Source: Gammaproteobacteria bacterium (GTDB lineage Bacteria; Pseudomonadota; Gammaproteobacteria; GCA-001735895). From it: a DNA stretch of 64,000 bases. The position numbers and the translations under genes were made by a program. The stretch lies in the NCBI GenBank assembly GCA_030595795.1, contig JAUVCH010000006.1:1-64000 (forward strand). The letters are read 5' to 3'. A model generated the notes under the pieces. That model did no database searches and was not told the origin of the DNA. It saw only the letters and a list, made by a program, of their open reading frames with translations. Shown piece by piece: positions 8,420 to 21,532 of this stretch; the stretch's first letter is position 1; every line of letters starts with the position of its first letter.

Positions 8420-9703
8420 TTAACTACTATCTTGCAGCAGCAATGTCGTCCACGGCATCAGTGCTACCAGTGCCCATGCTACTAACAGAGGAATCAGCAG
8501 CTTGAATATATTTCTCACTACCTGCGCGTAGGGTACATTCATCACACCCGAAACAACGAACAAATTCAAACCATAAGGCGGGGTGACGAAGCCGATGGTA
8601 GTGCCTAAAACAAAGACCACACCCCAATGTACGGGATCGATGCCGAACCCAGCGGCGACAGGCGCGAGGATAGGCCCCAGGATTAGCACCACGGCGATAG
8701 ACTCTGTTATCGCACCGACCATGAGGATTAACAGCATCATCAAAGCGATAGAAAATGCCGGTGCAATATTAGTCCCTACAGTTTGCAAAAAACCCTGCAG
8801 CGTTTCCTGCAAACCCATGACAGAAGCGACCTGTTGAAACTGCACTGAGAATGCCACCAGTGGCATGATCATTCCGGTTAACGCGGCACTTTGCAAAAGT
8901 ATACTGCGCAACTGACGAAACTTGATTTTCCGTGTAATCAGCCACCCGGCGAGGAAGCAGTAGATTGTCACCACCCCGGCCGCTTCAGTCGGACTAAAAT
9001 AACCCCAGTAAATGCCGAAGAAAATAACCCCGATTGCGATAAAGCCTATCCAGGCCTCTGCGGCCTTTCTGGCGATATTAGAAAAACTGAAGGACGCTAA
9101 GCCCTCGGATGGCTCCACTTTGCGCGTCAACCAGATGGCGGAAGCAACCAGACAAAGGACGAGTAAGGCCCCTGGGATAAGACCACCAAGAAACAAGTCG
9201 ACCGAAGAGACACCAGCAGTGACACCATAGACGATGAAGATGACGCTCGGTGGGATAATCACACCAACCGTGCCGCCAGCGGCAACCAGTGATGCCGCGA
9301 GGCCCGGAGGGATGCCCCGGTTCTTCAATTCTGGGCCGAGCAGGCGCCCCATGGTTGCGGCAGTCGCCGAGTTCGATCCGCTCACCGCAGCAAACAGTCC
9401 GCAGGACACCATAGTCGTCGCCGCAGTTGAACCCGGAAAGATCGATACCAGGCTTCTCGAAAAAGCTACCAGACGTTGAGAAATTCCGCCTGCGGTCAAA
9501 AAATCCCCGGTAGCGACGAACAGTGGCACAGCGAGGAATACATAGACTTTTATCGTGTCGGTGGCACCTATGCCGATATGCGCCATCGGATAATCGATGA
9601 CAAAATGCGATGTAGCGGCGACCCAGAGCCCGATAATCAATAGGATCGGCGTGCCGGTTAAAAACAGGACTATCGCCAGTAACGAAATTATCCAGATGGC
9701 CAT
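8420..9703 (-). CDS. dctM: TRAP transporter large permease (DctM type)
   Basis: 427 residues, almost wholly hydrophobic with about 12 predicted membrane segments. It contains the DctM signatures, including the early G-x-P-I-L-L-I-I-G-L region, S-G-S-N-S-A-T-A-A-T-M-G and G-G-T-V-G-V-I-I-P-P-S. This subunit carries the Na+-coupled elevator transport path. It lies 23 bases downstream of dctQ and completes a dctP-dctQ-dctM operon read leftward. Substrate specificity resides mainly in the binding protein, so it is not determined here. Confidence 0.93.
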   Translation of the reverse strand: MAIWIISLLAIVLFLTGTPILLIIGLWVAATSHFVIDYPMAHIGIGATDTIKVYVFLAVPLFVATGDFLTAGGISQRLVAFSRSLVSIFPGSTAATTMVSCGLFAAVSGSNSATAATMGRLLGPELKNRGIPPGLAASLVAAGGTVGVIIPPSVIFIVYGVTAGVSSVDLFLGGLIPGALLVLCLVASAIWLTRKVEPSEGLASFSFSNIARKAAEAWIGFIAIGVIFFGIYWGYFSPTEAAGVVTIYCFLAGWLITRKIKFRQLRSILLQSAALTGMIMPLVAFSVQFQQVASVMGLQETLQGFLQTVGTNIAPAFSIALMMLLILMVGAITESIAVVLILGPILAPVAAGFGIDPVHWGVVFVLGTTIGFVTPPYGLNLFVVSGVMNVPYAQVVRNIFKLLIPLLVAWALVALMPWTTLLLQDSS

Positions 9704-9726
9704 TTTATTCCCTCATGCACTCCGGC

Positions 9727-10266
9727 CTAGGCCGAGTGATCCCGTACATGATGGACGACTCTTTTCCTTTCGCCGTTGCAGATACTCCAGAATTTCTGTA
9801 ACACACGAATCATAGAAAAAGACCATCCGATCGGGACTGCCACTGTTGCTATCCACAGCGGAATATCGGTACCAAAAATAACCTGTTCGAAACGAATGTT
9901 ATTCTGTACGATGCCAGCCGAAACTTTGATGATGACAAAGCCTAATATCAGCCAGAAAATACAATCGAGAGATTCGAAGAAGGCTCGTACTGGCCACGGG
10001 AATCGATCACGGTATTCGTCAAAGGACAGGTGCAGACCTAAATTGATGTTGCTGGACATAGCAAACCAGGTGAGCCAGACGAAGGCGTAGAGTGATACTT
10101 CGGGTCCCCAGGCGGCCTGTTCCGTGGTGATCATGCGACGCAGAGCTTCTACCCCGACCAGCACGATGAGAGTGATGTAGCTCACCAGCATCACCCCATT
10201 TTCGACGGCGGTCACGACCTTGTTGAATCGCTCTCTCATATCAGCAACCTCGGGATTTCGAATCAA
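9727..10266 (-). CDS. dctQ: TRAP transporter small permease (DctQ type)
   Basis: 179 residues with four predicted transmembrane helices (about 18-38, 55-75, 95-118 and 138-158), the size and layout of DctQ. The W-F-A-M-S-S-N-I-N-L-G-L-H-L stretch between helices 2 and 3 fits the family. DctQ scaffolds DctM and is needed for transport. It lies between the binding-protein gene (34 bases upstream) and the large permease gene (23 bases downstream). Confidence 0.9.
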   Translation of the reverse strand: MIRNPEVADMRERFNKVVTAVENGVMLVSYITLIVLVGVEALRRMITTEQAAWGPEVSLYAFVWLTWFAMSSNINLGLHLSFDEYRDRFPWPVRAFFESLDCIFWLILGFVIIKVSAGIVQNNIRFEQVIFGTDIPLWIATVAVPIGWSFSMIRVLQKFWSICNGERKRVVHHVRDHSA

Positions 10267-10300
10267 ATAAGGAAATAGCGCAGCTGCGCAATGTCTCTAT

Positions 10301-11509
10301 CTATGTCCACCATTTCTCGGCTATGAGCGGCTTGCCCGAAATCTTTGCCTCGTACTCCTGTAGCGCGCCGAAAATATCCAGGCCAGCCAGTTTGTCGAGT
10401 TTTTTACGAATACCTGAATAGAGTTCGGGGCGTCGGTCGGCTGCAGACAGGGCCTTGAATGGCTCCAGTTCTTCCTGTGTGAAGCGCACATTCTTTATGT
10501 TGGCGGCAAGAAAGTCGCTATCGGGTGCCGGATCTGGCCCTACGCCTACCAGTTTATTATTGGCTTCCAGAACACCGGTAAAGCCTTCTTTCATTGCCTG
10601 CCAGGCAGCTTCGTAGAATATTTCCTTAATGCGATCAGGAAATTTATCGAACACCGCACTGGAGATGAAGCACAGCTCGAATCCAGGGCCGAAGTCGAGC
10701 GCGAGCCATTGCGAACAGACCTTCTGCATACCGGCCATAGTCGCCGGTGCTGCCCAGATCTCGGCAGCATCGACGATACCTGATTTCAAGCCTTCCAGGG
10801 TTTCGACAAAAGCTAAAGGAATGGGATTCATGCCGATTCCGGCACCAAAGGCACGAATTGGCTCGCTGTTAGTGATGCGCAGTTTGGCACCTTTAAGCTG
10901 CTCTGGTGATCTGATCGGCGGGTGATCCTTGTACTTGAGGCCCATAAAAAGACCCCGCATATCACCATTGCCGAACAGAGGTTCGATGCCATAACGACTG
11001 CGGAACACGCCACGATAGAGCTTTTCAGACTCCTTGCTGAACAGCATGTTGTAAAACCCGGTTCTATCCTTCCATAAATAGGGGAAATCGAGCGCGATGG
11101 CGTAAGGCAACACCGCCGCCAGATTTTGTGCCGATGAATTACCCATATCGAGGACGCCGTTGGCAACCCGGGTGCCACAATTGGGTTCCGCACAGGCACC
11201 TCGGGAATCTATGACCTGGATCGAAACTTCGCCATCCGACATTTGCTCGACCAGTTCCACAAAACGATAAGCCTTGGTCTGGAAACGCGGTTCGTTGGCT
11301 TTACTGATAACCGTGGCACCGTATCGCAGATTATATTTTGCCTTGGCCGCAGCGTTGGCGTCATTCATCACGAATTTTGAAAGCGATGGGACGAAGCCCA
11401 GAGTCGCCTGCGCAGAAATGGCATAAAGAGCCGCTTTGGCTCCGTATTTACCTGTAATACCCAATAGTTCTCGACGAGATAATTCCCGCTCTAATTTTTC
11501 CTGTTTCAT
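10301..11509 (-). CDS. dctP: TRAP transporter substrate-binding protein (DctP type)
   Basis: 402 residues. The N terminus carries S-R-R-E-L-L-G at about 11-17 before a weakly hydrophobic stretch, which fits a twin-arginine rather than a Sec signal. The mature part is a DctP-type bilobal binding protein. Visible are the L-K-G-A-K-L-R-I-T-N-S motif and the Arg that in characterised family members salt-bridges a substrate carboxylate. The ligand is therefore probably a carboxylated compound. An HCCA isomerase-like gene lies 58 bases upstream and could share the promoter, hinting at an aromatic or ring-cleavage acid; this is inference. Confidence 0.9.
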   Translation of the reverse strand: MKQEKLERELSRRELLGITGKYGAKAALYAISAQATLGFVPSLSKFVMNDANAAAKAKYNLRYGATVISKANEPRFQTKAYRFVELVEQMSDGEVSIQVIDSRGACAEPNCGTRVANGVLDMGNSSAQNLAAVLPYAIALDFPYLWKDRTGFYNMLFSKESEKLYRGVFRSRYGIEPLFGNGDMRGLFMGLKYKDHPPIRSPEQLKGAKLRITNSEPIRAFGAGIGMNPIPLAFVETLEGLKSGIVDAAEIWAAPATMAGMQKVCSQWLALDFGPGFELCFISSAVFDKFPDRIKEIFYEAAWQAMKEGFTGVLEANNKLVGVGPDPAPDSDFLAANIKNVRFTQEELEPFKALSAADRRPELYSGIRKKLDKLAGLDIFGALQEYEAKISGKPLIAEKWWT

Positions 11510-11567
11510 TACTGTCCTCCGAAGTAAATTTTATAAAAGATACTGATTGTTATAATGATCGATACAG

Positions 11568-12203
11568 CTACTCTGTACCTGGCCGCTCACCGGGCGGAAT
11601 GGTGTCAATTCGAAGCATTTCCTCAGTGCTTAAAATGCCTGGGTCAGCCAGGGTCTGGAGCACAAAATCGGTTTCATCGGCTCCCCAGAAAATAACCTTG
11701 TCGTAAACAAAAGTAGGTACGCCAAAAACACCGGCTTCGATAGCCCGGCGGCCGTTCTCTATCAGTTGTTCCTTTACCTCAGGTTGCTGAATACGGGTAT
11801 CAGCATCTTCGACCGCCAAAGCCTCGACGATACCTTGCCAGCCCAGTTCGTCTTCAGGTAGTAGCCCGTCCTGCCAGATACAACGGAAAATTGTTTCGAT
11901 AGTTTCGCGGTCTGAACCTAGCGATACCGCCAGGCGCAATGCCTTAAGAGGATTAAACGGAAACTTTGGCGGCAAATGACAGGGTATACCCTGCTGTTTC
12001 GCCATCCATAGTGTATGTCGTAGAGTTTGCAGGCGCTGTGGTGGTATTTGCCCCGGCCCTTTGGTTTCCCAGTGGGCGATCAGACCACCAAACAGTAAGG
12101 GGCGATGGATAATTTCGGCATTTTTTGGGAACTCACCGAGGCGCTGCGATTGCAGGTAGGCAAACGGCGACAGGAAATCAAAATACCACTCGATAGTTTT
12201 AAT
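11568..12203 (-). CDS. 2-hydroxychromene-2-carboxylate isomerase/kappa-GST-like protein, apparent ATT start
   Basis: A DsbA-fold protein of the HCCA isomerase family (glutathione-dependent isomerases of naphthalene-type pathways, related to kappa GST). A conventional start at 12003-12005 gives only 145 residues and lacks the thioredoxin-like N terminus. Read upstream in the same frame, the DNA is open to 12203 and encodes I-E-W-Y-F-D-F-L-S-P-F-A-Y-L, the family's N-terminal strand with its catalytic Ser in F-L-S-P. No ATG, GTG or TTG lies between the preceding in-frame stop and this motif. ATT at 12201-12203 is seven bases after GAGGG, giving 211 residues, the usual family length. Later F-G-V-P-T-F-V-Y is the conserved cis-Pro segment. 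Either ATT initiates, or the start codon has mutated. Confidence 0.8.
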   Translation of the reverse strand: MKTIEWYFDFLSPFAYLQSQRLGEFPKNAEIIHRPLLFGGLIAHWETKGPGQIPPQRLQTLRHTLWMAKQQGIPCHLPPKFPFNPLKALRLAVSLGSDRETIETIFRCIWQDGLLPEDELGWQGIVEALAVEDADTRIQQPEVKEQLIENGRRAIEAGVFGVPTFVYDKVIFWGADETDFVLQTLADPGILSTEEMLRIDTIPPGERPGTE

Positions 12204-12215
12204 TGTTCAGCCCTC
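12201..12215 (-). promoter_or_regulatory. Shine-Dalgarno GAGGG plus ATT start codon
   Basis: On the minus strand GAGGG (12215-12211) is followed by seven bases and then ATT (12203-12201), which opens the frame of a complete HCCA isomerase domain. The previous in-frame codons are ACA and then a TGA stop, so no standard start is available upstream of the conserved N-terminal strand. Good Shine-Dalgarno spacing argues for real initiation here. Confidence 0.6.
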
Positions 12216-13115: not shown

Positions 13116-15059
13116 CCACACATCCTATATATAGAAGACCAGAAAAGCATCGCAGATATTTTTAAATCCGTGCTGGAAGATCGTGGCCACAGCGTGGATA
13201 TCGCTGCTACAGGCGAAGAAGGTCTTGCTTTGTTTGCATCCTCGACTTACGACGTAATTGCAGTCGACTACCTGCTTCCAGGCATGAACGGCATTGACGT
13301 ATGCCGGAAACTGCTTGCCGATGACCCGGAGCTTCCCATCGTGATGGTGACTGGTGCGGGCGACCAGAATTTGATGATTGAGGCTCTCGATCTCGGTGTT
13401 TCGCAGTATGTGGTTAAGGACGATCAGTCGGTATACCTCAAATTACTGCCAAGCGTTATTGAGAACCTGTCACGACGCACTACCGCAAATCGGCAATTGC
13501 GCCTGGCGGAAGAGACTCGTCAAGATACCATGGAGCAAGCAAAGAAACTGGAGGAGGCGAGGAGCCTTTTCGACACCTTGTCGAACGCGGCACCTATCGG
13601 AATTTTTTACTCCGACAACGACGGGATCGCCCAGTATGTTAACGAGGCTTTGGCCGCTGTTACAGGGCATACGGTCGAAGAACTGACTGGCGAGCCGTGG
13701 CATTCAAAAATACATCCTGAGGATCGCAATACGGTTACGGATAATTGGTTGGAGAATGTTCATAGCGAGGAAGACTGGAACATAGAATTCCGATTTCTGA
13801 GGTCCGACGGAACCGTAGCCTGGGTGTCAGGGCATGCTAGTCCCCAGATTAGTGCAGATGGTAAAGTAATTGGTCACGTTGGTACGATTATGGATATCAC
13901 CGGTCGCAAAAACCGGGAAGCAGGACTGGAGCGGCGAATTGGAGAGCGCTCCAGGGAGCTGGATTTTCAGAAGACTGCGCTTGATGAACACGCCATCGTT
14001 AGTACCACCAACATAAAGGGCGACATCGTCCAGGTCAATGAAAAGTTTTGCGAAATCAGTGGCTACACCCGGGATGAACTGATTGGCCAGAACCACCGAA
14101 TGCTGAAGTCGGGCGAACATTCGATAGAATTTTATCGAGACTTATGGGGCACCATTACCAGTGGAAGACCGTGGCACGGTGAAATAAAGAATAATAAGAA
14201 AGATGGCGGACACTACTGGGTCAAGGCCACTATCGTTCCCTTCCCGGACGAGAATGGAAATCTCTTCCAGTATGTTTCCATTCGCACCGACATCACCGAA
14301 CGTAAACAGGCCGAAGCGGCACTATTGCAATCGAAGGCAATGGCTGAGGAAGCCAGCCTCGCCAAATCCAGATTTCTCTCATCCATGAGCCATGAACTGA
14401 GAACACCGCTAAATGCGATACTCGGTTTCGCGCAAATTTTGGAAATGAATAATGAGAAAACACTGAGTAAATCACAAATGGAGCACGTCGATCACATCAT
14501 GAGTGGCGGTAACCATCTGTTGGAGTTGATTAATAAAGTTCTTGATCTAACTAAAATTGAGTCTGGAAAGACAGTTCTATCTATCGAACCGGTTCAGATT
14601 AACGAACTCTGCCTCGAATGTCTGTCACTGATTGATTATCAGGCGAAGCATCGAGGGCTAAGAATCAAAAGGGAACCAGGTACCCACATTTCCATCAGCA
14701 CAGACTGCACCCTGTTAAAACAAATCCTGATTAATTTGTTATCCAATGCAGTCAAGTACAACCGGGAAGACGGATCAATAACGCTGTCCTGTGCGATGAC
14801 CCCTGATAACCAGATTAAAATAACGGTAACCGATACCGGAAAGGGTATCGCCAGGAACGACCAGGACAAATTGTTCGAGCCGTTCGACCGACTTGGCAAA
14901 GAAGCGAGTACCATCGAGGGAACCGGTATTGGCCTGACTATTTGCAAAAAACTAACTGAAGTCCTGGGTGGTCGTATCGGAGTCGAAAGCGAGGTTGGAA
15001 AAGGATCAACATTCTGGATAGTGATACCGGACAAAGAGACCGCGGAAAATTCAGGGTAA
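13113..15059 (+). CDS. Receiver-PAS-PAS histidine kinase, apparent ATT start
   Basis: 648 residues if ATT 13113 is used. The receiver domain (about 1-120) has its acidic pair in Y-I-E-D near residue 7 and the phosphoacceptor Asp52 in I-A-V-D-Y-L-L-P-G. Two PAS/PAC modules follow (about 150-265 and 280-400), then HisKA with phospho-His427 in S-H-E-L-R-T-P-L-N-A and a complete HATPase with N-box near 540 and glycine boxes to about 640. No membrane segment is seen, so this is a cytoplasmic phosphorelay kinase. An N-terminal receiver commonly lets another kinase gate its activity. Using GTG 13170 would delete the first strand of the receiver, so the upstream ATT is preferred. It is monocistronic. 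Confidence 0.85.
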   Translation: MPHILYIEDQKSIADIFKSVLEDRGHSVDIAATGEEGLALFASSTYDVIAVDYLLPGMNGIDVCRKLLADDPELPIVMVTGAGDQNLMIEALDLGVSQYVVKDDQSVYLKLLPSVIENLSRRTTANRQLRLAEETRQDTMEQAKKLEEARSLFDTLSNAAPIGIFYSDNDGIAQYVNEALAAVTGHTVEELTGEPWHSKIHPEDRNTVTDNWLENVHSEEDWNIEFRFLRSDGTVAWVSGHASPQISADGKVIGHVGTIMDITGRKNREAGLERRIGERSRELDFQKTALDEHAIVSTTNIKGDIVQVNEKFCEISGYTRDELIGQNHRMLKSGEHSIEFYRDLWGTITSGRPWHGEIKNNKKDGGHYWVKATIVPFPDENGNLFQYVSIRTDITERKQAEAALLQSKAMAEEASLAKSRFLSSMSHELRTPLNAILGFAQILEMNNEKTLSKSQMEHVDHIMSGGNHLLELINKVLDLTKIESGKTVLSIEPVQINELCLECLSLIDYQAKHRGLRIKREPGTHISISTDCTLLKQILINLLSNAVKYNREDGSITLSCAMTPDNQIKITVTDTGKGIARNDQDKLFEPFDRLGKEASTIEGTGIGLTICKKLTEVLGGRIGVESEVGKGSTFWIVIPDKETAENSG

Positions 15060-15770: not shown

Positions 15771-16337
15771 TTAAAGGCCTCTGGCCAGACTGAAAGCGCC
15801 TCGAATTTGGCCCAGGGTATATCCGCGCGCCATATCCTGAGGGTATTTTTCCTTAAGCACCGCTTCGATTTCCGGTTTGATATCAGCGGCATGGCAATTC
15901 ATGCAAACAGGCTCGACACCCTGTGCTTTCATGAAGCGATACTTACCATCCACTACTTCAGCAAAGGCCATCTTTTCAGCGGATTCACCCTTGGCCTGGC
16001 GTTGGTCGAACTGTTCCAGTACCTTTCTTTCCCAGGCATCAGGGATAGCCGTTTGCTGATTGCGTGCCTTGAGACTGACTCGCTTTACATACCAGCCGGT
16101 TTCATTGTGAAGGCTTTTGGCGATGGCCGGGGCTCTTTCAGAGCAAACGGAAATTGCATGCGCTGGACCACCTGTTTTGATCGCTTGCTTTAGTTCGGGT
16201 TTAAGAGTGCCACCGAACTTCTTCACGATATTGACCGCTTCTTTTTTCAGTTGGGCTTTGTCGATATCTGCTTGCGCTAGCGGAAATGCTAATAGACTCA
16301 CAGCAAAGAATGTTATCGAAACAAGTTTACGTCGCAT
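15771..16337 (-). CDS. Periplasmic Tll0287-like (DUF3365) c-type heme protein
   Basis: 188 residues with a Sec signal peptide cleaved after A-Q-A near residue 23. The rest matches the Tll0287-like/DUF3365 domain: an I-S-V-C-S-E-R-A-P motif near 65, an aromatic-rich R-V-S-L-K-A-R-N near 90, and one c-type heme site C-M-N-C-H near 145. Tll0287-like domains are PAS-related heme modules that sense redox or gaseous ligands; here the domain stands alone as a soluble periplasmic protein. A second, membrane-bound version with HAMP is encoded at 56335-57240. It is not in an operon. Confidence 0.82.
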   Translation of the reverse strand: MRRKLVSITFFAVSLLAFPLAQADIDKAQLKKEAVNIVKKFGGTLKPELKQAIKTGGPAHAISVCSERAPAIAKSLHNETGWYVKRVSLKARNQQTAIPDAWERKVLEQFDQRQAKGESAEKMAFAEVVDGKYRFMKAQGVEPVCMNCHAADIKPEIEAVLKEKYPQDMARGYTLGQIRGAFSLARGL

Positions 16338-16633: not shown

Positions 16634-17809
16634 ATGGTACGGCTAATCGACGTACCCGAGCCCGAACGTACGGTCATCACCGACCTCCAATGTCCGACCT
16701 ATAATCAAACGCCCTTTACTACGCCGGTACCGGCCAGACAACGGCATGTTGCTATCGTCTCGACTGCCGGATTAATCGTTCGTGGTGAGCGGCCCATGCT
16801 GTCGAGCGAAACCGGTTATCGCTCGATTGCGGCCAGTGTTAACGATAACGACATTCTCTGTAGTCACGTTTCCACCAATTTCGATCGTACTGGTTTTCAG
16901 CAGGATACGAATGTACTGCTGCCCCGTGACCGGCTATTGGAGCTGGAGCGCGATGGTCATATAGGCAAAGCAGCCGATACGCATTACGCGTTCATGGGTG
17001 CGACCAGTCCTGTGGCTCTGGAAGACAAGGCGCGGGAACTAGGTCGTTCAATGCTGGCACTTGGAGTAAACACGGTCGTCCTGGCACCGGTATGACCCGC
17101 CTGTACGCGCGCCGTGAGCGGGCTGGCCCATTACCTCGAAGATGAAGGCTTAGCAACCACCATTGTTGCACTAGTGCGCGAGCACATTGTGAGCATGCAT
17201 CCTCCAAGGGCTTTGTGGGTGCCCTTCGAGTTAGGTCGTCCATTTGCGGAGCCTGATCAAGCTGCCTTACAACGACGGATATTAGAGGCTGCGCTAGCCT
17301 TGCTGGACAAGCCCGTATCATCCCCGTTTCTGCAAGATTTTACCGAACAAATGCCGTATCAACCGAGCGATGCTAGCTGGTCTCCCCCCGGGAGTCTGGA
17401 TAGCAGGAGTGCCACTGCCGAAGCTTCGAGCCTGTTACCAATCTGGCAAAAGGCTCAGTATCGAGTAGGTAAAACGACAGTGGGTATTAGCGGGTTAACT
17501 CCAGACATCGCAGTCGAGTATATCGAACGCTATCATTTACCCGACCCAATGCCGAATCCAAAAGGTATGGCGGCGGTTTCACGGGCTCGCTTCGCGATTG
17601 ATGATATTAAGGCTTATTATTCTGAAGCAGCATTGGCGTCTGGTGGCTATCCTTCTTCGCATCAATTGCACGAATGGTTCTGGAACCATACGATGGCTGG
17701 AACCATGATCCGAGATTTTCAGGACATAGCGCGCCTAAGTGATGACAGTAATTTGCAATTAATTTCGGGTTCGCTGGTTCCAGCGGAACGCACTTACGAA
17801 TATTCATAG
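16634..17809 (+). CDS. GrdB/PrdB-like selenoprotein, in-frame TGA read as selenocysteine
   Basis: A standard reading gives two pieces (16634-17095 and 17114-17809), but they are in one frame interrupted only by TGA 17093-17095. Reading it as selenocysteine gives 391 residues with Sec154 in V-U-P-A-C-T-R, the UxxCT redox motif at the same place as in selenoprotein B of glycine/sarcosine/betaine reductase. The piece before it has the family's H-V-A-I-V-S-T-A-G and V-N-D-N-D-I-L-C-S-H, and the piece after it A-L-W-V-P-F-E-L-G-R-P-F. selA lies 2.3 kb downstream on the same strand. Clostridial homologues form the substrate-specific part of amino-acid reductases; no grdA, grdC or thioredoxin partner is present, so the substrate in this organism is unknown. 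The conserved Cys157 and continued coding after the TGA argue against a pseudogene. Confidence 0.85.
17093..17122 (+). promoter_or_regulatory. Sec TGA codon and candidate SECIS hairpin
   Basis: Right after TGA (17093-17095), CCCGC at 17096-17100 pairs perfectly with GCGGG at 17118-17122. Inside it, TACG (17104-17107) pairs with CGTG (17113-17116, including one U-G pair) around the five-base loop CGCGC. A GC-rich hairpin abutting the UGA is what bacterial SelB needs. The apical loop is only 12 bases from the TGA, closer than in E. coli fdhF, and a bulged U is not evident, so the exact functional fold is uncertain. Confidence 0.55.
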
Positions 17810-17894: not shown

Positions 17895-20060
17895 ATGAGT
17901 AATCCCTCCAAACTCGCCAGTTTACAATCCTTATTACAGGAAAAAAATGATGAAATCGAGCGCCTGCGTGAGCAATTGGCTGGGAATGAAGCGGCGTCGG
18001 AGTTTAAGCAGGAACTTCATCAAACTTTGTCCAGAGCCGTTAATATCGGATATTGGGAATGGGATGAAATAGCCAATAAATCTGCTTATTTCTCCGAGGA
18101 GATGGCGGCTATTATGGGGATGAGCCTGGAGTCACTCTATGAGCAATACCAATGTGAGGAAGATTATTTTCGTTTTGTTCACACGGATGATTTACAGCGC
18201 TATATCGATAACCTGGGTGCTATCCTGCATCCCGATCATCCGCGGGGCAGTGCACACAAATTTCATTATCGAATTATCAGGCCCAATGGCGAAGTGCGAC
18301 ATTTGCTTGAGCTAGAATATGGAAAGCAGGTGGAAGATGGTGTTATTACACGCACCTACGGTGCGATCCAGGATATTACCGATATCGAGGAATCGACTCG
18401 CTTGCTCGAAGAAAGCGAACAGCGCTATAGCGCTCTGTTTTCTAAATTACCCCTCGGTGTGATGGAACAGGACTGGTCAGAAATAAAAATGAGGGTTGAT
18501 AGACTACGATCCGAAGGAGTTGATGACTTTATCGAATATTTTCAACAAAACCCTCTGGTGTTAAAGGAACTGGCGGGAACGATTATTATCTCTAGCGTCA
18601 ACGATAGATTAATGGAAATTTACGGTGCTGGTTCCATTGACGACTTTATCGATTCCGAAGAAGATACATCTGACTGGTGGGATGATGAATGGGCAAATCT
18701 ATATGCATCAGAAATTGCAGGGCTTGCAGGTTCTGAAAAGATAAGTTTCAGTGAGGCCACAGAAACTCGAATGGATGGCTCTGAATTTTATGTCCGCTTG
18801 ATTACCAGCCTTGTCAAAGGCGATGAGGATAGCTGGCAGAGAATTCTTACCATTATTGAGGATGTAACCGAACGAAAAAAGTACGAAGTGGATTTAATCG
18901 AAGCCAGGAACATAGCTGAAGAAGCCAGTAAGGCAAAGACTGAGTTTCTCTCGAACATGAGTCACGAACTGCGTACGCCATTGAATGCAATACTCGGCTT
19001 TTCGCAACTATTCGAATATGACATGAGCCTCGGTGAACAGCGCCAATCGAGAGCACGCGCCATTAATAATGCCGGGAAACACCTGTTAAATCTAATTGAT
19101 GAAATTCTGGATTTATCTCGCGTAGAAGCCGGTAACATCGAGCTCTCGATGGAACCCGTTCGACTAGGGCCGGTTATAAAAGCGAGTGTATCCTGGGTGG
19201 CCGAGATGGCAAAAGGCCGCGGTATCAGCATCGAATTCGACCCGGGGGTTTATAGCGGGGTAATGGTGGAGGCGGATGCAGGCAGGTTGAAGCAGGTATT
19301 TTTGAATCTGCTCAGCAACGCGGTGAAATATAACTGTGAGAACGGCAAGATCAGCATCGATTATCAGTTGGATGAACAGGGAATAGCAAGAATTAGTATT
19401 ACAGATACTGGAATCGGTATATCACCCGATCAGCTAGACGATTTGTTTAAGCCATTTAATCGTCTCGGCGCAGAGTTCATGGGTATCGAAGGTACCGGTA
19501 TTGGTTTGGTGATTACCAAACGACTGGTTGAACTCATGCAGGGCGAACTCAAAGTTGATAGTAAGCCGGGGCAAGGCAGCACTTTTACGGTACAGTTTCA
19601 GACCATACAAGGCTATCGAGACGGGATCGAGGTATCTAATGCGGCCGAAGTTGAAATTGATAGTTCCGTTATCAATAGGCCCGATATACTGGTTGCTGAA
19701 GATAATCTGGCGAACCAGGTCTTGATGGAAGCACAACTGGAAGCACTTGGTTACAGTGCGGACTTTGCCGATGACGGTCTTGAAGCGCTGGAGTTGTGGA
19801 AAACTGGAAACTACCAGCTATTACTCACCGATATTCGTATGCCGAAGATGAATGGGAATGAATTAATCAGGCAGATAAGAGTCGAGGAATTAAGCACCGC
19901 TCCGATTCCTATCATCGCCGTGACTGCGAACGCTATGGAAAGTGATACCAAACAATGTCTTGAAGCAGGGGCAAACGATGTCTTATCTAAGCCCTTTACT
20001 TTAGAAGCCTTAAAGCAGATGTTGGAGAAATGGTCACCACTACAGGGAAAGTCTGTATAA
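17895..20060 (+). CDS. PAS-containing hybrid sensor histidine kinase
   Basis: 721 residues without clear membrane segments. A short coiled coil (about 1-35) leads into a PAS domain (about 48-168), a second PAS-like domain enlarged by an acidic insertion (about 175-325), HisKA with His357 in S-H-E-L-R-T-P-L-N-A, HATPase (about 465-580) and a C-terminal receiver with phosphoacceptor Asp646 in L-L-T-D-I-R-M-P-K. It lies between the selenoprotein gene (85 bases) and selA (68 bases), all on the same strand. Whether it regulates selenium use or is just a neighbour cannot be told. It resembles the kinase at 13113 and is probably a diverged paralogue. Confidence 0.9.
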   Translation: MSNPSKLASLQSLLQEKNDEIERLREQLAGNEAASEFKQELHQTLSRAVNIGYWEWDEIANKSAYFSEEMAAIMGMSLESLYEQYQCEEDYFRFVHTDDLQRYIDNLGAILHPDHPRGSAHKFHYRIIRPNGEVRHLLELEYGKQVEDGVITRTYGAIQDITDIEESTRLLEESEQRYSALFSKLPLGVMEQDWSEIKMRVDRLRSEGVDDFIEYFQQNPLVLKELAGTIIISSVNDRLMEIYGAGSIDDFIDSEEDTSDWWDDEWANLYASEIAGLAGSEKISFSEATETRMDGSEFYVRLITSLVKGDEDSWQRILTIIEDVTERKKYEVDLIEARNIAEEASKAKTEFLSNMSHELRTPLNAILGFSQLFEYDMSLGEQRQSRARAINNAGKHLLNLIDEILDLSRVEAGNIELSMEPVRLGPVIKASVSWVAEMAKGRGISIEFDPGVYSGVMVEADAGRLKQVFLNLLSNAVKYNCENGKISIDYQLDEQGIARISITDTGIGISPDQLDDLFKPFNRLGAEFMGIEGTGIGLVITKRLVELMQGELKVDSKPGQGSTFTVQFQTIQGYRDGIEVSNAAEVEIDSSVINRPDILVAEDNLANQVLMEAQLEALGYSADFADDGLEALELWKTGNYQLLLTDIRMPKMNGNELIRQIRVEELSTAPIPIIAVTANAMESDTKQCLEAGANDVLSKPFTLEALKQMLEKWSPLQGKSV

Positions 20061-20128: not shown

Positions 20129-21532
20129 ATGGGTAAACCGGGACTATCTGCGCTTGCACAACTACCGTCGATTGATCGACTATTAAATTCGCCTTCCTCC
20201 AGTGAATTGATACTCTCCTATGGCCGTAAAGAAATTAAACATGTCGCACAGGAAGCGCTTGAATCCATGCGTATTGCAATTAAGCAGGGAGGAATTGTCG
20301 ATACGAACGAAGCCGCTATCTGTTCCTTGATTGAGCAGAAGATAACGCGAGACGCGAATGGCCAGATTCGACGAGTCATTAACCTGACAGGAACCTTGCT
20401 TCACACCAATCTGGGGCGGGCAATCTTGCCACAGGAATCTATCGACGCGGTGCTCGGGGTACTGCGTGATGCGTGCAATCTTGAATACGATCTCGAAAGT
20501 GGGGAACGCGGCAATAGAGATGAATTTATTGAAAAACAAATTTGTCGATTAACCGGTGCTGAAGCCGCGACGGTAGTAAACAATAATGCCGCCGCAGTTA
20601 TGCTGATACTGAATACTCTGGCTTTGGGCAAAGAAGTTCCGGTATCGCGTGGAGAGCTGGTAGAGATCGGCGGTTCGTTTCGCATACCCGAAATCATGTC
20701 ACAATCCGGCTGCAAACTGATTGAAGTTGGATCGACTAATCGAACTCATCGGGGTGATTTTGCTAAAGCGTTTAATTCACAGACGGCGATGATCATGAAA
20801 GTGCATCAAAGTAATTATGTCATCCAGGGTTTTACCGCATCGGTTGATGATAAAGACCTGGCCGGGCTTTGTGCTGAATCGGATATTCCACTGGTGATTG
20901 ATTTGGGTAGCGGCACTCTGGTCAATCTCGAAGATTACGGATTACCGCATGAGCCGACGCCAATGGGGGCATTGAAGTCGGGTGCCGATATTGTCACCTT
21001 CTCGGGCGACAAATTACTCGGCGGCCCGCAGGCTGGCATCATCGTCGGGTGTCGTGAATTGATCGATAAATTAAATGCCAATCCGATGAAACGCGCATTG
21101 CGTTGCGACAAAATGACTATCGCAGCCCTGTCTTCGCTATTGCAGCTTTATAACCATCCAGATCAATTGACAGAAAAGCTTCCGGTGTTAAGGATGATGA
21201 TACGTAGTATCGATGACATTAGGCAGCTGGTAATACCGTTGGTGGCAATGCTGACTGGACGATTTGCTGGCAAGGCGAATGTAGCGTTGGTTGAGTGCAA
21301 TAGCGAGATTGGTTCGGGCGCTTTACCTGATCGACTCATACCAAGTGTTGGCATTGCGATTCGACCGTTGCAGACCCGAGTTAATGTCGATGCCATTGCC
21401 AAAGCATTTCGAAGTTTACCGATTCCTGTTATTGGTCGAATTCACAATGGCGAATTTCTGCTGGATTGCCGTTGCCTTGAGCATTCGGAAGAATTTTCGG
21501 CACAGCTTTCCGAACTTAAAATCAACGAATGA
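20129..21532 (+). CDS. selA: L-seryl-tRNA(Sec) selenium transferase
   Basis: 467 residues, full length for SelA, the PLP enzyme that converts seryl-tRNA(Sec) to selenocysteinyl-tRNA(Sec) using selenophosphate. Landmarks include N-L-T-G-T-L-L-H-T-N-L-G-R, N-N-N-A-A-A-V-M-L, and the PLP lysine in S-G-D-K-L-L-G-G-P-Q, which falls at residue 295, the same number as in E. coli. The usual partner selB is not downstream; the next gene is on the opposite strand. selB, selC and selD must therefore lie elsewhere. Its presence supports reading TGA 17093 as selenocysteine. Confidence 0.95.
   Translation: MGKPGLSALAQLPSIDRLLNSPSSSELILSYGRKEIKHVAQEALESMRIAIKQGGIVDTNEAAICSLIEQKITRDANGQIRRVINLTGTLLHTNLGRAILPQESIDAVLGVLRDACNLEYDLESGERGNRDEFIEKQICRLTGAEAATVVNNNAAAVMLILNTLALGKEVPVSRGELVEIGGSFRIPEIMSQSGCKLIEVGSTNRTHRGDFAKAFNSQTAMIMKVHQSNYVIQGFTASVDDKDLAGLCAESDIPLVIDLGSGTLVNLEDYGLPHEPTPMGALKSGADIVTFSGDKLLGGPQAGIIVGCRELIDKLNANPMKRALRCDKMTIAALSSLLQLYNHPDQLTEKLPVLRMMIRSIDDIRQLVIPLVAMLTGRFAGKANVALVECNSEIGSGALPDRLIPSVGIAIRPLQTRVNVDAIAKAFRSLPIPVIGRIHNGEFLLDCRCLEHSEEFSAQLSELKINE

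Follow-up and report, generated by a model that had tools for sequence, protein, structure and literature searches.

The stretch of DNA analysed here (64,000 nucleotides, hereafter the window) comes from a gammaproteobacterium and raises the question whether a TGA codon inside one of its genes is a stop or encodes selenocysteine (Sec) and, if the latter, what a relative of the reductase selenoproteins PrdB and GrdB could be doing in this organism. The original prediction held that positions 16634-17809 form a single frame which standard gene calling would split, with one TGA at 17093-17095 and a U-P-A-C-T motif at residue 154 of 391, and that selA follows 2.3 kb downstream on the same strand. 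All of these points were borne out. Reading of the frame on the plus strand gives exactly one in-frame stop, the TGA, ahead of the terminal TAG, and standard ORF calling cuts the gene into 16634-17095 (153 aa) and 17114-17809 (231 aa), which makes it a clear repair case for annotators; selA was found at 20129-21532 on the plus strand (TIGR00474 match). The peptide around Sec154 is ...VVLAPV-U-PACTRAV..., and the parts of the gene and its downstream neighbours are listed below.

16634..17809, plus strand: long-form PrdB/GrdB-like selenoprotein gene, 391 aa with the TGA read as Sec
16670..17317, plus strand: PrdB-equivalent catalytic core, about residues 13-228, from tblastn, alignment and structure model
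17093..17095, plus strand: in-frame TGA, the Sec codon (154) within U-P-A-C-T, conserved at this codon in all orthologues and paralogues
17103..17127, plus strand: predicted SECIS hairpin with its core stem at 17107-17123 and the apical loop CGUGA at 17113-17117, 17 nt after the UGA
17318..17806, plus strand: C-terminal extension, mainly helical, about residues 229-391, of no known family
17895..20060, plus strand: gene for a hybrid sensor histidine kinase, placed after the selenoprotein gene and before selA, from NCBIfam matches
20129..21532, plus strand: selA, L-seryl-tRNA(Sec) selenium transferase of the genus 'type B', TIGR00474 at 566 bits (cut-off 268)

We surveyed 57 related genomes for orthologues and found the gene in the window genome and in 10 others. 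The orthologues are 62-73% identical to the window protein, and TGA stands at codon 154 in all 11 same-genus orthologues covering that stretch (one is split over two contigs). The same codon was found in six of six closely related sequences from named genomes (63-72% identity) and, at the same place, in all four copies covering the relevant stretch in a paralogous family of about 40% identity. This family of long selenoproteins comprises L019, L020, L021 and L022 (genomes G003, G017, G015 and G028); in G015 and G028 the paralogue is divergent from an Fe-alcohol-dehydrogenase gene that adjoins selA. Since the TGA is kept in 11 orthologues and 4 paralogues, chance or sequencing error is excluded. 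For the orthologues, pN/pS is low to about the same degree on the two sides of the TGA, and dN/dS of close pairs is 0.08-0.29 upstream and 0.09-0.23 downstream of it; both sides are under purifying selection. A Cys version of the long protein itself was not seen among the orthologues and paralogues compared. The original prediction had named two kinds of evidence that would speak against it, a sense codon for anything but Cys or Sec at this position and a broken downstream frame in relatives, and neither occurred: orthologues and paralogues all carry TGA and, in a proteobacterial sister family of about 310 aa, 18 members have Cys at the aligned position and 2 have TGA.

A SECIS-type hairpin is predicted just downstream of the TGA. 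All 14 sequences retain its core pairs in the consensus fold, and ACGCGCGCCGTG (17105-17116) is identical in 13 of 13. The codon alignment of 12 genes holds 82 columns with an invariant amino acid, only 9 of which also have an invariant codon; four of these nine are codons 158-161 (ACG CGC GCC GTG), which are degenerate, consecutive, placed just after the TGA and fixed in all 12 aligned sequences. When the peptide was recoded synonymously, 97% of the variants folded less strongly than the native hairpin; folding of the single sequence against dinucleotide shuffles was not significant. Compensatory base changes were not seen in the 14 sequences because the core of the hairpin does not vary, and the predicted pairing rests on invariance and spacing. 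Both the 17-nt spacing and the presence of G-U in the loop agree with bacterial SECIS elements, for example that of E. coli fdhF.

One might argue that the TGA is a real stop, which either separates two proteins or marks a decayed gene, as standard ORF calling does yield two ORFs with possible starts. However, every orthologue and paralogue, even at 40% identity, has this TGA and no other stop in frame, purifying selection is seen on both sides of it, the UxxC motif spans it and the codons that follow are fixed, which makes this explanation extremely improbable. That TGA is read as some other amino acid (e.g. Trp), via a different code or suppression, has a practically negligible chance of being true. 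We found no supporting evidence for it; TGA normally terminates other genes here, such as a trimethylamine-dehydrogenase-like gene, the Sec system is present, and relatives have Cys, not Trp, at position 154. Our comparison of sequences leads us to conclude that the gene encodes a true selenoprotein in which residue 154 is the predicted Sec.

The window genome (4.12 Mb in 189 contigs, 92% complete, 0.3% contamination) contains a complete Sec set: selA lies in the window, selB directly followed by the tRNA-Sec gene lies on another contig, and selD is present as well. Among the 36 genomes of the family that were searched, selA was found in 10, all of which also carry the selenoprotein gene; put the other way, selA is present in 10 of the 11 gene carriers versus none of the 25 non-carriers. 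The eleventh carrier, in which selA was not found, is G023, where two contig ends each hold part of the selenoprotein gene. The order selA-selB-tRNA-Sec-selenoprotein gene occurs in five genomes, and in two further ones the selenoprotein gene adjoins selA-selB-tRNA-Sec. The histidine kinase gene separates it from selA in the window, with gaps of 85 nt (selenoprotein gene to kinase) and 68 nt (kinase to selA) and all three genes on the same strand, and the kinase is possibly co-transcribed with its two neighbours. The selenoprotein gene and the Sec genes are unlinked in G003 and sit on separate short contigs in G024. We considered whether the Sec system is there to serve formate dehydrogenase and rejected this, since an in-frame TGA is absent from every formate-dehydrogenase-like or molybdopterin-enzyme gene found in ten Sec genomes. 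A codon-based screen that covered one third of the window genome (1.38 Mb) gave no convincing further Sec genes and recovered the present gene as a control; the remaining candidates of high rank appeared to be adjacent genes lying in one frame. No viral or phage copies of the selenoprotein gene were found.

The Sec machinery of the genus is of two types, between which SelA is about 50% and SelB about 38% identical and the predicted tRNA-Sec is 96 versus 91 nt long (loci compared: window 20129-21532; L069 at 9456-11510 of G000:C105; L055, L059-L064 and L068). The window genome mixes type-B SelA with type-A SelB and type-A tRNA-Sec, and its selA contig and its selB/tRNA-Sec contig are each long enough to show that the usual partner is not adjacent. 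A binning error or the missing 8% of the genome could mimic such a hybrid. The SECIS core of the selenoprotein is identical under both SelB types and, given this constancy together with the hybrid genome, it seems that the Sec machinery has been exchanged around a constant selenoprotein gene.

The proposed kinship with GrdB and PrdB also held, with one refinement: the core of the protein is nearer to PrdB than to GrdB, and its last 160 or so residues resemble neither. The Pfam family GRDB (PF07355) matches with 39.7 bits against a gathering cut-off of 22, at profile positions 202-345 of 347 only. The best NCBIfam model is that of PrdB, TIGR04483, at 81.4 bits, which does not reach the equivalog cut-off of 300, and the GrdB-type models (TIGR01917/01918) give 45-57 bits and likewise stay below their equivalog or exception cut-offs of 602-800. 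The annotated PrdB of Terrisporobacter matches residues 13-224 with 25% identity in tblastn; true PrdB proteins on annotated plasmids show 25-27% identity over the same residues, and their Sec aligns with Sec154. Besides U/C154 and C157, the residues common to PrdB and the long family are A45, D91, P97, G108, E169, R192 and G201. The protein thus shares with PrdB of Terrisporobacter and Clostridium (TIGR04483) the aligned Sec of U-x-x-C and a similar core of about 220 residues. However, PrdB has about 240 residues whereas the present protein has 391 with a helical C-terminal extension, the score is far below the equivalog cut-off, and PrdA was not found here. With GrdB, GrdF and GrdH of the glycine, sarcosine and betaine reductases it shares the PF07355 match above cut-off and the Sec motif, but the match is confined to the C-terminal part of the profile and the partners GrdE and GrdA were not found here.

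Alignment shows that the C-terminal extension, about residues 229-391, is absent from PrdB and from the sister family, and no Pfam match above cut-off was obtained for it. Among 398 genomes sampled across the phylum, a full-length match to the protein was found in the window's own genome only. Our second structure model (pLDDT 83) places Sec at the turn from strand 147-151 to helix 155-170, at the N-terminus of the latter, and predicts helices 260-278, 290-298, 314-335, 342-367 and 372-381 in the extension. Sequence search gave no homologue of solved structure, and a fold search gave no significant match with either model.

The sister family, annotated as 'glycine/sarcosine/betaine reductase selenoprotein B family protein' (L074-L090, L105, L106), has the same core with Cys or Sec at the aligned position, but is only 20-27% identical to the long protein and differs from it by CxxCH (CPVCHQ) instead of UxxCT, by another N-terminus and by the lack of the C-terminal extension. 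The original prediction had proposed a check of position 154 for Sec or Cys in relatives, and the residue turned out to be Sec in PrdB and the orthologues and Cys or Sec in the sister family. Some sister-family matches with one TGA were merely terminal stops, and a real Sec codon was upheld in two. Both are in genome G192, in genes of about 300 aa (L087, L090) with TGA in UPVCHQ where most relatives have Cys, and they would represent an independent Sec/Cys exchange. Stickland partners were not found near sister-family genes in the annotated plasmid neighbourhoods examined.

Selenoproteins called 'PrdB' have been known as abundant in marine metagenomes since 2005: 42 sequences were reported from the Sargasso Sea, among the most abundant selenoproteins there (PMC1088965), and 235 from the Global Ocean Sampling survey, among the commonest (PMC2398784). 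They are PrdB/pfam07355 homologues with UxxC, as is the long protein, which probably belongs to this collection, but the available text of the two surveys contains no analysis of length, partners or operons. The PrdB selenoprotein family also appears in recent reviews (PMC9312934, PMC13188914). A GrdB-like protein serving outside amino-acid reduction is found in the fluoroacetate operon of Cloacibacillus (PMC10838667); that operon, however, has two GrdB-complex-related genes, an antiporter and a radical-SAM protein, a context that is not seen here. Therefore, the class of PrdB-like selenoproteins is already known, and what would be new is the long form, which is partnerless and usually lies beside Sec genes.

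The absence of amino-acid-reductase partners near the gene had been predicted, and it extends to the whole genome for GrdA and GrdE/PrdA. PF09338 (GrdE/PrdA) was not found in 11 genomes of the group by a search that does detect the control plasmid bearing PrdA, and PF04723 (GrdA) was not found in the group genomes searched, with the control plasmids detected. It follows that the long selenoprotein cannot be a Stickland reductase of known composition and, with the known partners missing, the enzyme must do a different job. It could still be supposed from its relation to PrdB and GrdB that the protein is an ordinary subunit of a Stickland-type D-proline, glycine, sarcosine or betaine reductase. 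This is highly improbable, as the equivalog cut-offs are missed widely (81 versus 300 bits for PrdB, 45 versus 602 for GrdB), PF09338 and PF04723 are not found although the controls are, and an additional domain of 160 residues is present. Thus the missed cut-offs and the partners not found support the earlier suggestion of a role other than Stickland fermentation. Judged by sequence, the long protein is a partnerless long-form selenoprotein of the PrdB/GrdB superfamily.

The neighbouring genes offer some hints of function. A trimethylamine-dehydrogenase-like gene lies within 10 kb of the selenoprotein gene in three genomes; such methylated-amine neighbours are not universal and occur also in genomes that lack Sec or the selenoprotein gene, so this link remains a hint. 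In the window genome, the trimethylamine-dehydrogenase-like gene has a TGA that proved to be simply the regular end of its frame. Functional hints come likewise from the surroundings of the paralogue, with a molybdopterin oxidoreductase in G003 and G015 and a glycine-betaine-type ABC transporter in G015. The window has a TRAP transporter and two-component genes at this place rather than methylated-amine genes. The transporter is complete (DctM, DctQ, DctP; 8420-11509, minus strand), is located some 5 kb upstream of the selenoprotein gene and is not kept at the other loci compared. A gene for a Tll0287-like domain protein (15771-16337, minus strand) is divergent from the selenoprotein gene and has sensor kinases at 13170-15059 and 17895-20060 near it, which makes a sensing cluster possible. 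A DSBA-like ORF resembling 2-hydroxychromene-2-carboxylate isomerase (11568-12209, minus strand) has no ATG, GTG or TTG at the expected start and is directly preceded by an in-frame TGA, which points to a change of start codon or decay.

What reaction the protein may catalyze depends on how its motif is read. UxxC is a common dithiol-like redox motif, similar to that of thioredoxin, and no substrate partner proteins were found; the PrdB-core selenoprotein could therefore act as a thiol-disulfide or peroxide-type redox protein and not as a reductase that cleaves a bond in a small metabolite. However, the kept core residues A45, D91, P97, G108, E169, R192 and G201 look like a conserved substrate pocket, and the order of elements in the structure model does not suggest a thioredoxin-like fold. 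We regard this explanation as unlikely, yet one to be taken seriously.

The explanation which we consider probable is that of a PrdB-type reductase subunit, decoded with Sec154, that acts without a pyruvoyl subunit (PrdA/GrdE) and without selenoprotein A. It builds on what we observed of the frame, its conservation, the SECIS-type constraint, the Sec machinery, the homology and the known partners, which were not found. The chemistry and the role of the C-terminal extension, which we infer, could be as follows. UGA-154 would be decoded as Sec by SelA, SelB, SelD and tRNA-Sec, aided by the SECIS hairpin just downstream. The selenolate of Sec154, at the N-terminus of the helix after the central strand, would attack a small substrate at an electrophilic carbon or sulfur atom, the cysteine of U-x-x-C, Cys157, would resolve the selenium adduct to a selenenyl sulfide, and a cellular dithiol system would re-reduce the latter. 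The C-terminal helical extension may provide the substrate binding or oligomer contacts that in clostridia are supplied by the partner missing here. Most likely, PrdB chemistry would be kept on a different substrate and without the pyruvoyl partner. Our best guess for this substrate, a weak one taken from the neighbouring genes, is a methylated amine or betaine-type compound. A bolder proposal, which is doubtful and should be taken as speculation, is that a lone PrdB-type selenium-dependent reductase takes a methylated amine or betaine-type osmolyte as its substrate, that it dispenses with the pyruvoyl and selenoprotein-A subunits on which every characterised relative depends, and that the genus keeps, and even exchanges, the whole Sec machinery for this reductase.

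To our knowledge, the function of PrdB-like selenoproteins outside clostridial proline reduction is untested. In this genus the use of Sec and the selenoprotein gene go together, and the gene is defined, conserved, partnerless and usually located beside the Sec genes. Therefore, the role of a lone PrdB-type Sec enzyme becomes a testable question.
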